Shown: positions 21,770 through 46,120 of the stretch, in pieces | How positions within the stretch are numbered: the first letter of the stretch is position 1 | Layout: the number at the start of each line of letters is the position of its first letter | DNA from: Bacteroidales bacterium | GTDB lineage: Bacteria; Bacteroidota; Bacteroidia; Bacteroidales; F082 | DNA: 47,451 bases | NCBI GenBank assembly: GCA_029933225.1 | Contig: JAOZOO010000010.1 | Location: 1-47,451, forward strand | Direction: 5' to 3' | Program-made: the position numbers and the translations under genes | The notes under the pieces: model-generated | What the model was told of the DNA's origin: nothing | Databases searched by the model: none | What the model saw: the letters and a program-made list of their open reading frames with translations, nothing else

Positions 21770-22813
21770 TTAATCATCAGAAGGTTTCAGGTCTTTTAAT
21801 TTCTTTTCCAGTTCATCAATGCGTTTCACGATGCTGTCCAGTTTCCTGAAATGAATGTAAGAGCGTTTGAAGTCGCGGATGGGAAACGAGGGGGAACCTT
21901 CGACAAAAGCCCCTTTTTCTTTTATATTTTTCCCCACACCTGCCTGGGCTGATACTTTCACTTCGTCGGCAATGGTCAGATGTCCTGCAAAGCCTGCCTG
22001 TCCGCCGATCATACAATATCTCCCGATCTTTGTTGAACCCGAAATGCCGGTTTGGGCTGCGATCACTGTATTTTCGCCGATCTCCACATTGTGGGCGATC
22101 TGAATATGATTGTCTAACTTAACACCTCTGCGTATCAGGGTGGAACCGAAAGTAGCCCGGTCAATGGTGGTGTTCGCACCGATTTCGACACGGTCTTCAA
22201 GGACGACATTACCGATTTGCGGGACTTTTTTATAGTTCTTATCATCCTGTGGAGCAAATCCAAATCCGTCACTTCCCAACACTACCCCGGCATGTAACGT
22301 GCACTCATTCCCGATCACCGTATCCTCATACAGTTTTACACCGGCATAGATACAAGTATCGTTACCAATCCTGCAATTGTCGCCGATGACCGTATTCGGA
22401 TAGATCTGCGTCCGGTCACCGATTACGACATTTTTGCCAATAACCGCAAACTCGCCGATGTAAACCTCTTTACCAATCCGGCTTGACGGATCGATGGCTG
22501 CTTTATCGGAGATGCCGGTCTTTCTGCCTTTGGCCTGTTGGTACATATCGAGCAGGGAGGCAAAAGCCGAATAGGCATCTTTCACCCGGACCAGCGTGGC
22601 AGGCACCGGGTGTTCAGGCTGAAAATCCTCATTGACAATGACGACGGATGCTTTGGTGTCGTAAATATATTTTGTGTAAACGGGGTTGGCGAGAAAAGAG
22701 AGGGTTCCGGGTTCGCCTTTTTCAATTTTCGATATCGAAGAAACCTCCACGTCAGGATTCCCTTCCACCTGACCCTGAAGGAAATCCGCAATTTGCCGGG
22801 CAGTAAATTTCAT
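21770..22813 (-). CDS. lpxD: UDP-3-O-acylglucosamine N-acyltransferase
   Basis: This 347-residue enzyme adds the N-linked acyl chain in the third step of lipid A synthesis. It has the N-terminal uridine-binding domain (~1-100: SSISKIEKGEPGTLSFLANPVY), about ten hexapeptide coils (IGKEVYIGEFAVIGKNVVIG), the GSDGFGFAP segment, and the catalytic histidine in DNHIQIAHNVEIGENT. The C-terminal helix (KLDSIVKRIDELEKKLKDL) is charged and coiled-coil-like. A 139-nt gap separates it from the downstream lpxC-fabZ gene, which has its own promoter box. It is the canonical copy; a more diverged one lies at 17882. Confidence 0.95.
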   Translation of the reverse strand: MKFTARQIADFLQGQVEGNPDVEVSSISKIEKGEPGTLSFLANPVYTKYIYDTKASVVIVNEDFQPEHPVPATLVRVKDAYSAFASLLDMYQQAKGRKTGISDKAAIDPSSRIGKEVYIGEFAVIGKNVVIGDRTQIYPNTVIGDNCRIGNDTCIYAGVKLYEDTVIGNECTLHAGVVLGSDGFGFAPQDDKNYKKVPQIGNVVLEDRVEIGANTTIDRATFGSTLIRRGVKLDNHIQIAHNVEIGENTVIAAQTGISGSTKIGRYCMIGGQAGFAGHLTIADEVKVSAQAGVGKNIKEKGAFVEGSPSFPIRDFKRSYIHFRKLDSIVKRIDELEKKLKDLKPSDD

Positions 22814-22930
22814 GCTCTTTTTTGGTTTGCAAGATACGTATTTTGATTTGATTGAAAGGAATTTGCCTGCATCGGGCCAAATTTTATTTTGACCACAGCA
22901 CTCCCCAGGAGGTGTGGTGAAAAAGATAAG

Positions 22931-23101
22931 GTAATAAGGTTGATTTTCTTCTTAATCTTACTGCTACTAATGTAATAAGGTTTTTTTATGCGATGACGGA
23001 TTACCAATTCTTAATATAAAATAGTCTAAAAAACCTTATCGAAAAAAATAAACCTTAATAGCCCTCAAAACCAACTAACACTAACCTTATTAGCTTATTA
23101 C
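22931..23101. repeat. Cluster of ATAAGGTT repeats, direct and inverted
   Basis: Exact 11-nt direct copies of GTAATAAGGTT lie at 22931-22941 and 22972-22982. Inverted copies of the core occur at 23032-23039 (AACCTTAT), 23051-23058 (one mismatch) and 23082-23101 (ending AGCTTATTAC). The stretch is AT-rich and non-coding, on the promoter side of lpxD. It could hold operators or be a decayed repeat. Confidence 0.5.
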
Positions 23102-23127
23102 TTTCAGCCAAGAAAAGGACTGATTGA

Positions 23128-23352
23128 CCCGGCCTGGTCTCGCTCCCAATGGGGCGGGAGATGGGCCAACCTGGGCAGGCTTGCTCCCAGGTTGAAATGA
23201 AGGGTACATTAAAAAAATTGCTGATTAGAGATTTCGACCAAGCGGGAATAAAGCTACCCGCTTGGTGAAGGGGTTTTTCCGACCAAGCTGGGAACAAGAC
23301 TGCCCGCTTGGTCAGGGTCCAACCTGGTGAGCGGTTTTACTCCCGCCTGGTC
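23128..23352. repeat. Array of five related hairpins in the lpxD-HD gene gap
   Basis: Five ~30-nt elements (about 23128-23155, 23167-23194, 23237-23266, 23281-23313, 23317-23352) share the pattern GGG + ARYRARVCYR + usually CCC. Elements 3 and 4 read on the plus strand; 1, 2 and 5 on the minus strand. Elements 2, 3 and 4 form stems of 9, 10 and 11 bp (one bulge in 4), each with a 10-nt loop. The outer stem letters differ between elements 2 and 3 but stay paired. The rest of the 558-nt gap holds no credible gene. Confidence 0.65.
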
Positions 23353-23371
23353 AAAAGAATTATTATTGAAA

Positions 23372-24610
23372 CTAATGTATCTCCTTCGGATAACACAAAA
23401 AGTGTTTCGTGACAGGTTTTGAAAGGAGAGAAATGTTCAGGTCTTCGGTGGCTTCGCCGATATTTTTTACCGAACCATCCTTGAATAATATCTCGATCTG
23501 ATCGGTATTGGGCTGATACGCATAATTTGATGTACGGTCATTGATGATGAAATAATCTGCCTCCTCTTCCGAAAGCCCGTACCTGCTGATGACTTTTTTT
23601 CTGATCTCCTGCACATATTCGTCCCCGAAAGGATCATTCTGCAACTCAATCCTGAACAACCTGCGGTCAACCAATCCTTTGCTTAAAAATGACAACACCT
23701 TGTCGGGATGAGTCTTCCAAACTTTCATAGCGCCAAAAACATCATAATCATCAAGCTCTGAAAAAATATTAATCACCTCATCCTCCTGAAAGTCTTCCAG
23801 CGTAACCTTTTTGGTCAGAAAAAACGACAATGCCGGCGAGGCAAAAAGTTTTTCCCCGTTCAGGCTCAGATATTTCGCCCTTTTCAATAACCTCATCATC
23901 ATGTATTCGGCAGCAAGAACCGTTTTATGCAAATAAACCTGCCAGTACATCAGCCGGCGGGCCGTGATAAATTTTTCCACCGAATAAATCCCCTTGGCCT
24001 CGACCACAAGTTCGTCACCGAGAACATTCAGCATATTGAGCAGACGTTCAAAATTGATCACCCCTTCGGCCACTCCAGTGAAAAAACTGTCGCGCTTCAG
24101 GTAATCCAGCCGGTCCACATCCAACTGACTGGAAACCATTTTTCCAAGAAACTGTTTCAGGTACTTTTTTTCAAAGATCTCCAAAGCTGTTGAAAGTGCT
24201 CCGTCAAAAATTGTATTGAAACGACGGATATAGATTCTTGATAATTCCTCATGGCTCACCCCGTCAACAATAGCATGTTCCAGGGCGTGGGAATACGGTC
24301 CGTGGCCAATATCATGCAACAAAATAGCCATTTCAGCACCAAGCGCTTCATCAGGTGTGATCTCATGCCCTTTGGACCTCAGCTCCGCAATGGCTCTTTG
24401 CATCAGGTACATGGCGCCAAGCGAATGATGAAAGCGGGTGTGAAGCGCCCCCGGGTAAACCAGATGCGTCAGCCCCAATTGCTTGATCCTACGTAATCTC
24501 TGAAAATACGGATGCTCGATGATGTCGAAGATCAGTTCGTTGGAAATGGATATGAATCCGTAAACCGGGTCATTGAATATCTTTCGTTTGTTTGTTAATG
24601 AAAAGCTCAT
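23372..24610 (-). CDS. HD-domain phosphohydrolase (dGTPase/YwfO-like)
   Basis: This 412-residue cytoplasmic protein has the HD-superfamily metal site: H-x3 region TRFHHSLGAMYLM (H61, H62), then LLHDIGHGPYSHALEH with H99-D100, and a distal aspartate in SSQLDVDRLDYLKRD. The start NDPVYGFI and PYFQRLRRIKQLGLTHLVYPGALHTRFHHS match the group annotated as HD-domain or dNTP triphosphohydrolase-like proteins. It likely removes phosphates from nucleotides; the substrate is not certain. It sits upstream of lpxD on the same strand with the repeat-rich gap between, and divergent from porX. Confidence 0.85.
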   Translation of the reverse strand: MSFSLTNKRKIFNDPVYGFISISNELIFDIIEHPYFQRLRRIKQLGLTHLVYPGALHTRFHHSLGAMYLMQRAIAELRSKGHEITPDEALGAEMAILLHDIGHGPYSHALEHAIVDGVSHEELSRIYIRRFNTIFDGALSTALEIFEKKYLKQFLGKMVSSQLDVDRLDYLKRDSFFTGVAEGVINFERLLNMLNVLGDELVVEAKGIYSVEKFITARRLMYWQVYLHKTVLAAEYMMMRLLKRAKYLSLNGEKLFASPALSFFLTKKVTLEDFQEDEVINIFSELDDYDVFGAMKVWKTHPDKVLSFLSKGLVDRRLFRIELQNDPFGDEYVQEIRKKVISRYGLSEEEADYFIINDRTSNYAYQPNTDQIEILFKDGSVKNIGEATEDLNISLLSKPVTKHFLCYPKEIH

Positions 24611-24720: not shown

Positions 24721-26274
24721 ATGAGTAAGATTAAAATTCTATGGGCCGACGATGAAATCGACATGTTGCGGCCGCATATTCTTTTTCTTGAAGAAAAGGG
24801 CTATGATGTGGATGCTGTGAACAGTGGCGATGAAGCAATCGACCTGATCAAAGAGAACAACTACGATATCATTTTTCTGGATGAACAGATGCCCGGTCTG
24901 AGCGGAATAGAAACGCTGGAACGGATGAAGAACGACTTCCCAAATATGCCCATCGTGATGATCACCAAAAGCGAAGAAGAATCCATCATGGAATCCGCCA
25001 TCGGGTCAAATATTGCCGATTACCTCATTAAACCGGTGAAACCCAGTCAGATTCTCCTCTCGCTGAAAAGAAACCTGGAAAACAGGAAACTTGCCGGCGA
25101 AAAAGCCACCATGAACTACCAGCAGCAGTTTCGTGAGATCGGGATGAAACTTAGCGGACACCTGGATCACAAGGAATGGATCGATATTTATAAGAAATTA
25201 GTGAGGTACGAACTGAACCTGGAGAAATCCAATGACGAGGGAATTCTGGAAGTCCTCAACATGCAGAAAAATGAAGCCAACAGTGCTTTCACCAAGTTTT
25301 ACGAGAATAATTATCTTGACTGGTTGCAGGGAAATTCCGATTCAAAACCGACCATGTCGCATACCTTGATCAAGGATAGTGTTTTTCCCGAACTTCAGAA
25401 CAGGGAGAAAGTATTCCTGCTTTTGATCGACAATCTGCGGTTTGACCAGTGGAAAGCCATCCAACCCATGATCGAGCAGTATTTCAGGGTACAGAAAGAT
25501 GACATTTATTATTCCATTCTTCCAACCACCACACAGTATGCGCGTAATGCCCTGTTTGCCGGTCTGATGCCCAGCGAGATCAGGAAATATTTCCCCAATT
25601 TCTGGACTGACGAACACGAGGAAGGGACAAAGAATCAGTACGAGGAACAGTTGCTTTTGGAACAACTTAAACGGTACGGCAAGAACATCAAAACTTCGTA
25701 CAATAAAATCCTGAACCTGAATGCCGGCAGAAAACTATTTGAAAACATCTCCAACCTCATGTCCAATGATTTCAATGTCATTGTTTACAATTTTGTGGAT
25801 ATGTTGTCGCACGCCCGTACCGAAATGGAGATCATCAGGGAACTGGCGGACGACGAACCGGCATACCGCTCGCTGATGATGTCGTGGTTTGAACATTCTT
25901 CACTGTTTGACATCATTAAATACCTTTCCGATAAAAATGTGAAACTGATCATCACAACCGATCACGGTTCTGTGAAAGTAACGAATCCTGTGAAAATTGT
26001 GGGCGACCGGAATGTAAATACAAACCTGCGCTACAAGTTCGGCAGGGCGTTGTCGTACAACATCAAAGAAGTGTTTGAGATGCGTGATCCCGAAAAATAT
26101 TACCTGCCAAAGATCAATGTCAGTACAAGTTATGTTTTTGCCAGGGGCGGTGACTTTTTTGCTTACCCGAACAACTATAACTATTACGTGAATTATTACC
26201 GGAACACTTTCCAGCACGGGGGCATCTCGATGGAAGAAGTGCTGATACCTTTTATTACCTTGAGTTCGAGATAA
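24721..26274 (+). CDS. porX: PorX-type response regulator with PglZ phosphatase-like domain
   Basis: This 517-residue protein pairs a receiver domain with an alkaline-phosphatase-superfamily (PglZ) domain, the PorX layout; PorX, with PorY, regulates type IX secretion in Bacteroidota. Receiver (1-~120): acidic pocket D10-D11, phosphoacceptor D54 in IIFLDEQMPG, and conserved K in DYLIKPVKP. A helical linker follows (~125-205). The PglZ part (~210-517) shows metal-site residues: D237 in LLIDNLRFDQ, T271 in PTTTQYARNALFAG, D414-H415 in TTDHGSVK. There is no DNA-binding domain. The stop overlaps the tsaE start by 1 nt. The T9SS-tailed proteins in this window are candidate cargo of the system it controls. 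Confidence 0.92.
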   Translation: MSKIKILWADDEIDMLRPHILFLEEKGYDVDAVNSGDEAIDLIKENNYDIIFLDEQMPGLSGIETLERMKNDFPNMPIVMITKSEEESIMESAIGSNIADYLIKPVKPSQILLSLKRNLENRKLAGEKATMNYQQQFREIGMKLSGHLDHKEWIDIYKKLVRYELNLEKSNDEGILEVLNMQKNEANSAFTKFYENNYLDWLQGNSDSKPTMSHTLIKDSVFPELQNREKVFLLLIDNLRFDQWKAIQPMIEQYFRVQKDDIYYSILPTTTQYARNALFAGLMPSEIRKYFPNFWTDEHEEGTKNQYEEQLLLEQLKRYGKNIKTSYNKILNLNAGRKLFENISNLMSNDFNVIVYNFVDMLSHARTEMEIIRELADDEPAYRSLMMSWFEHSSLFDIIKYLSDKNVKLIITTDHGSVKVTNPVKIVGDRNVNTNLRYKFGRALSYNIKEVFEMRDPEKYYLPKINVSTSYVFARGGDFFAYPNNYNYYVNYYRNTFQHGGISMEEVLIPFITLSSR

Positions 26275-36988: not shown

Positions 36989-37388
36989 GTCGTGCAGGCT
37001 GTTCTATCGTCACGCCTCTGGCGTGGAGGAAAGTCGGGACAACACAGAGCACCATACTTCCTAACAGGAAGGACTTCCGTGTGAAACGGGAGGACAGCAA
37101 GTGCCACAGAAAATAACCGCCGATGCCGGGGCTTTTCAAAGGGCTTCGGCAGGCAAGGGTGAAAACGTGGGGTAAGAGCCCACGCGATGTTGTGGTGACA
37201 CAGCACCGGGGTAAACCTTATGGGTTGCAAGTCCAAGTATGCCGGCGCTCCCGGAATCCCGGGAAAAGGGCTGCTCGTCCGATGCCGGCGGGTAGGATGC
37301 TGGAGCCATGCAGTGATGTATGGCCAAGAGAAATGATAGAACCCCGTTAATTACGGGAGACAGAATCCCGCTTACAGGCCTGCACGGC
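36989..37388 (+). ncRNA. rnpB: RNase P RNA (bacterial type A)
   Basis: This ~400-nt RNA is the catalytic part of RNase P, which matures tRNA 5' ends. All conserved regions are visible in order: GAGGAAAGTCGGG (37026-37038; CR-I, with GGG where CCGGG is usual), AGTGCCACAGAAAATA (from 37100; CR-II), GGTAAGAGCCCAC (37171-37183; CR-III), and ACAGAATCCCGCTTACAGGC (from 37360; CR-V). The ends pair as helix P1: 36989-36999 with 37378-37388 (11 bp, one G-U). A T run follows directly as the terminator tail. Short open frames on both strands across the region are not genes. Confidence 0.97.
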
Positions 37389-37396
37389 TTTTTTTA
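37388..37396 (+). terminator. T-tail terminator of rnpB
   Basis: The 3' strand of helix P1 (37378-37388) is followed at once by CTTTTTTTA, so the last helix of the RNA can serve as the terminator stem. Confidence 0.6.
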
Positions 37397-45941: not shown

Positions 45942-45949
45942 CCTCGCAT

Positions 45950-46107
45950 TTTCTTCGGGGCAGGGTGCCCTGTTTATGCTGCGGTAAAAGCGCTGTGGCA
46001 CAGGCAGGAATTCCCGACCGGCGGTGAAAGCCCGCGACTCCCGTAAGCATGGGACTGACCCGGTGAAATTCCGGAGCCGACAGTAACAGTCTGGATGGTA
46101 GAAGAAA
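45950..46107 (+). promoter_or_regulatory. FMN riboswitch (RFN element)
   Basis: The RNA senses flavin mononucleotide and normally lowers expression of flavin synthesis or uptake genes. Conserved blocks: GGGGCAGGGTG (45957-45967), AATTCCCGACCGGCGGTGAA (from 46009) continuing AAGCCCGCGAC, then GACCCGGTGAAATTCCGGAG (from 46057), GCCGACAGT and CTGGATG (46091-46097). P1 closes as 45950-45956 (TTTCTTC) with 46101-46107 (GAAGAAA). The variable stem is at 46038-46055. Position P2 carries an extra ~41-nt insert (45968-46008). The element has its own promoter and lies 145 nt upstream of a TonB-dependent receptor. Confidence 0.95.
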
Positions 46108-46120
46108 TGTGATAGACCGG

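Follow-up and report, generated by a model that had tools for sequence, protein, structure and literature searches.

The hairpins clustered between lpxD and an HD-domain gene of a Bacteroidales genome are, we conclude with considerable confidence, REP elements, in part paired into REPINs: non-autonomous sequences that would be moved, via a folded single strand, by one clade of RAYT transposases. In related genomes, the RAYT that very probably spread them is encoded next to copies of these repeats. The initial annotation of this DNA, a stretch of 47,451 nt (here, the window), had proposed a REP-like dispersed palindrome under structural selection, and the copies, their covariation and their position at the flanks of RAYT genes all fit that proposal. 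What identifies them as REPs is the combination of many dispersed copies, mostly intergenic placement, inverted pairing and, in relatives only, the presence of the same elements around a RAYT gene.

The hairpin array and its genomic context

The window corresponds to contig C188 in a MAG (G000; 3.68 Mb, 361 contigs, 92% complete). The array is situated within an intergenic gap of ~560 nt (22814–23371), flanked by lpxD (21770–22813) and the HD-domain gene (23372–24610), both on the minus strand. The same gap contains, at 22920–23106, an AT-rich, MITE-like repeat whose ends, TAAGGTAATAAGGTT and AACCTTATTA, are inverted and both halves of which recur 200–230 nt apart at several sites of the genome. 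Positions 24721–26274 encode a response regulator carrying a PglZ domain, a domain layout that we take to be that of PorX of Bacteroidota. At the gathering threshold, no Rfam family matches the array; the matches in the window are a class A RNase P RNA (36991–37390) and an FMN riboswitch (45947–46110) only.

Five hairpins had been claimed here. Four of them (A to D) match R1, a covariance model trained on 17 copies from the host genome. Copy A (23232–23271, plus strand) carries a TTTC tag, the stem GACCAAGCGGG/CCCGCTTGGT and the tip AATAAAGCTA; it scores 55.6 bits (genome-wide E 3.8e-14), and its single-stranded DNA fold has a z of −5.6 versus shuffles. Copy B (23277–23317, plus; tip AACAAGACTG) has a single bulged T in its stem and reaches 41.6 bits, with a fold z of −3.9 on the same scale. 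Together with copy D (23317–23356, minus; tip AGTAAAACCG; 44.0 bits), whose loop is kept and whose stem has decayed (fold z −0.6), it forms an inverted pair, or REPIN, with the plus-then-minus spacing of 13 of 14 such pairs. Copy C (23164–23197, minus; tip AGCAAGCCTG) has a shortened stem, CAACCTGGG/CCCAGGTTG, and scores 32.8 bits with a single-stranded fold z of −2.4 versus shuffles. The linker between copies C and A (23198–23231, plus) belongs to a composite unit that recurs elsewhere: a similar minus-then-plus linker, in the same arrangement, is present at three other sites of the host genome (C138, C320 and C39) and adjoins the RAYT gene of a congener (G001:C292). The fifth proposed hairpin (23128–23160, minus; AGCGAGACCA; loop at 23144–23135) did not hold up, yielding no R1 match, a fold z of 0.0 and no stable structure; at most, it is the decayed remnant of half a copy.

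Structure and covariation of the element

The element is a 32-nt hairpin and hence within the range of the short (~20–65 nt) dispersed palindromes known as REPs. We aligned 66 distinct copies from several genera, which reveals an 11-bp stem whose sequence varies among copies while its pairing is maintained. Paired cells amount to 95.2%, compared with 77.5% in shuffles and 30–46% in slid controls, and cells changed on both sides number 177 versus 53 in shuffles; the alignment comprises copies with mostly intact stems, which biases the stem counts upward and leaves the tip pairs unaffected, and the shuffle counts are not probabilities because the copies share ancestry, the slid controls retaining this relatedness yet scoring far lower. 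The conserved loop and compensated stems first noticed in the window are thereby borne out, well in excess of chance, in the wider family.

The loop itself had been read as unpaired, and here the alignment corrects the initial annotation, as two covarying pairs lie inside it. Pair 2–9 is GC in 36 copies, AT in 28 and GT in 2, while pair 3–6 is CG in 44 and TA in 22; neither is broken in any of the 66 copies. The two pairs occur in all four possible combinations (33, 19, 9 and 3 copies), so they switch separately. C8 is unpaired and invariant, and A4 and A5 are unpaired and nearly invariant. Outside the hairpin, a 5′ flank of TTTC is conserved at 1.0 to 1.7 bits per base, the 3′ flank far more weakly. 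The GT[AG]G tag that marks the GTAG-tagged REP superfamily occurs in 0 of 66 copies, with TTTC or near variants in its place. A variant of R1 with ~22 extra tip bases is recurrent as well (L095:1548–1609 and L031:3684–3745, both of the CCCCGTCTGTTCAGCCGGGCAGG type; G004:C42:6694–6755).

Copy number, distribution and empty sites

Scanning with the covariance model returned many more copies, both in the host genome and in its relatives. The host holds at least 37 R1 matches at E<1e-5, 17 of them the training copies, a count that is a lower bound because 150 of 1,079 candidates were scored. Among congeners, G001, G002, G003 and G004 have 54, 16, 6 and 45 matches, respectively, and G005 has no R1 match; in further genera, G013 has 46 and G016 has 8, with few or none in the rest; these counts, too, come from a search in which part of the candidates were scored. 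Across the wider family, R1 is present in 21 of 149 genomes, spread over 7 of 16 genera. The database records that carry the RAYT loci described below are all MAGs, under the labels Bacteroidales, Bacteroidetes or Chlorobiota (JAADID01 for G001, JAKIVD01 for G013), and the element family has so far been found only in Bacteroidales, in an uncultured group.

These counts bear on one rival explanation, namely that the array is a local repeat that arose by chance and decayed, with nothing wider behind it. The decayed state of copy D and of the fifth element would suit such a repeat, and the initial annotation had named an absence of further copies, together with covariation no better than chance, as its signature. 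The discovery of further copies in the genome (at least 37 in total), the excess of double changes over shuffles (177 versus 53), the dispersal of the element and its distribution over genera all run counter to it, and its probability is practically negligible.

Both orientations are found, as the mixed orientation within the window had suggested, and inverted pairs lie close together. Neighbours in plus-then-minus order are spaced −1 to 8 nt in 13 of 14 cases, which is REPIN-like, and minus-then-plus pairs are mostly 31–35 or 60–63 nt apart. Placement is mostly intergenic: 6 of 64 copies overlap a gene model, compared with 81% of random positions (the gene models being rough and ORF-based).

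The spacer between the HD-domain gene and lpxD measures ~560 nt with its copies in the host. Its counterparts in G004, a congener, and in G007, a member of another genus, are 95 and 93 nt long, respectively, and neither contains an R1 copy; in G001, 361 nt separate the same gene pair, again with no R1 match. Given the short, copy-free spacers of G004 and G007, the array in the window is most simply a lineage-specific addition. As a comparison of sequences, this shows gain or loss of the array and is silent on mechanism.

Stems and tips that covary, in copies that sit between genes, could also be expected of an RNA-level element in the HD–lpxD transcript—an mRNA stabiliser, an attenuator or a protein-binding site—whose loop is maintained by selection on RNA, and REPs elsewhere in bacteria can indeed end transcription or stabilise mRNA (PMC6006769). 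Such a role sits poorly with the occurrence of both orientations and of inverted pairs, with copies adjoining RAYT genes (see below), with a site that is copy-free in relatives and with the lack of an Rfam match at the gathering threshold, and we regard it as improbable. Moreover, a two-nucleotide loop closed by a pair is probably better suited to DNA than to RNA. Single-stranded DNA is also the likelier level of selection because the transposase family in question acts on single-stranded DNA hairpins.

Linkage to one clade of RAYT transposases

A search for a REP-associated tyrosine transposase, as advised at the outset, showed that the same elements flank RAYT genes in related genomes. On contig C292 of G001, a 239-codon RAYT frame is embedded in a dense, alternating array of R1-type elements. 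This RAYT matches NF047646 with 52.9 bits (E 3.7e-14; below the curated cut-off of 80 bits) and the solved E. coli RAYT–REP complex, PDB 4er8, with a profile E of 1.9e-8; the latter is likewise the best fold match of its AlphaFold model (pLDDT 90.2; E 2e-7, TM 0.56/0.68). The motifs NHxH (HUH) and Y-I-x-x-N-P are invariant in 20 aligned sequences, RAYT copies with stop codons having been excluded from the alignments. With its HUH motif, Y---NP signature and Y1 fold, the protein belongs to the RAYTs, or TnpAREP class 2.

Within this clade, R1 adjoins six loci at E<1e-6 (G001:C292, G013:C22, G016:C5, G049:C2, G054:C33 and G099:C174), and no R1 copy lies near any of 30 other Y1-gene loci searched. 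Around 24 RAYT-clade loci, hairpins reach 5.5 per kb versus 0.16 per kb in controls and occur on both sides of the gene in 22 cases; many of them have other loop types, indicating that the clade carries several REP families. R1 is present in 10 of 12 RAYT-clade genomes (G006 and G101 have no R1 match) versus 11 of 137 others, with a Fisher p of 2e-8 that ignores relatedness. In the RAYT tree (in which the row G054C33 is a 29-residue fragment), the clade has a support of 99/97, and R1, found at 6 of 16 loci, needs ~5 changes. R1-type elements are thus scattered over the tree, so that the relation of one RAYT to one element type is not strict, and the tree does not show strict coinheritance of the two.

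The presence of IS200-type genes in the host genome, and of a different MITE-like repeat adjoining the hairpins, raises the question of whether the latter might be MITEs of another mobile element, for example of IS200/IS605, their proximity to RAYT genes being coincidental. R1, however, stands beside six RAYT loci and near none of the remaining Y1-gene loci that were searched, IS200-type ones included, and we hold a MITE origin to be very improbable compared with mobilization by the RAYT clade. Within the host itself, the IS200-type genes were rejected as partners, having no R1 copy nearby, as were the RAYT-like genes on C6 and C293, which fall outside the R1-linked clade and are likewise unaccompanied by R1. 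No cognate RAYT was found in G000; since the assembly is fragmented and 92% complete, its absence is not proven, and the gene may either have been lost or have escaped the assembly.

Two further loci deserve mention. In G002, which has 16 R1 matches, a RAYT gene of the clade on C26 (L163:1498–2115; the same gene as L201) contains one in-frame stop and is apparently decayed. At L168:1344–1985, the palindromic repeat GTGTTAGGTTTTCAAAACCTAACACG forms an in-frame insertion within a RAYT gene and recurs around that gene, comparable to reports for subclass 2.4.

Proposed mechanism of mobilization

Known RAYTs act on REP DNA in its folded, single-stranded form, which they bind, scan for a tag and unpaired bases, and cut via a tyrosine (PMC8266576, PMC6006769). 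We infer that the tag and tip of R1 are read by the RAYT of the linked clade. The protein would recognise the folded single strand by its TTTC tag on the 5′ side, by the foot RACC and by the tip of the hairpin, where a mismatch and two pairs accompany an AA dinucleotide loop and an unpaired NC. Its tyrosine would nick the strand, after which the element would be moved or copied, probably during replication, when DNA is single-stranded. More tentatively, and with slightly less than even confidence, we suggest that a Bacteroidales RAYT lineage lacking the GTAG guide reads a tip code—pairs 2–9 and 3–6, the AA loop, the unpaired C and the 5′ TTTC—that has been kept across genera while the sequence of the stem was replaced.

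Comparison with known REP and RAYT systems

REP/RAYT systems are known in kind, and the missing GTAG tag combined with a conserved tip is apparently what is new here. In the literature covered on REPs of Bacteroidetes or Bacteroidales, two papers were relevant (PMC6006769 and PMC3733652), and no description of the conserved R1 tip was found in the main texts covered; comparable hairpins could already figure in supplements or subscription papers, including the supplementary tables of PMC6006769.

Like R1, the REPs and REPINs of E. coli and Pseudomonas are short, mostly intergenic, arranged in inverted pairs and found at the flanks of a HUH/Y1 gene, and the E. coli RAYT–REP complex is the best solved-structure match of the Bacteroidales RAYT. 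R1 differs from that type in its TTTC, with GT[AG]G in 0 of 66 copies, in a tip where two covarying pairs surround an AA loop, and in its occurrence in Bacteroidales. In the E. coli REP, a bulged pyrimidine is contacted by RAYT, and by analogy the unpaired C8 of R1 may be its counterpart.

Subclass 2.6 of TnpAREP, from Bacteroidetes, has atypical secondary structures, with untagged hairpins flanking the gene (PMC6006769). It resembles the R1 system in phylum, in the lack of GT[AG]G and in having hairpins around the gene plus copies elsewhere, although its hairpins are described as weaker than R1, a comparison by description and not by sequence (PMC6006769). Its motifs are NH[LIV]H, WQ and YIH[QN]NP, whereas the R1-clade RAYT has NHFH, YIHRNP and no WQ. 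Subclass 2.4 (Cyanobacteria, Bacteroidetes and others) shares the phylum in part, the motif NH[IFV]H and the possibility of REPs inside the gene, but differs in its canonical GT[AG]G REPs and in its WQ and YIxNNP motifs (PMC6006769). With no W at the place of WQ and YIHRNP in the clade, its motifs match neither subclass well.

The Marinomonas REPtron offers a parallel for the tip. In its REP Mb, cleavage depends on T12 and A15, loop bases that enclose two nucleotides and function as a pair (PMC8266576); positions 3 and 6 of R1 resemble them, by natural covariation, whereas REP Mb differs in its 5-bp stem, GTAG tag and four-base loop (PMC8266576). R1 extends REP/RAYT systems by a defined hairpin family in uncultured Bacteroidales, and natural covariation in its tip indicates, ahead of any experiment, which bases are likely to pair and which the protein is likely to read. 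If the cross-pairing guide rule (PMC8266576) applies, TTTC predicts cleavage at GA, which makes this tag a test case for the IS608/REP Mb rule outside GTAG systems.
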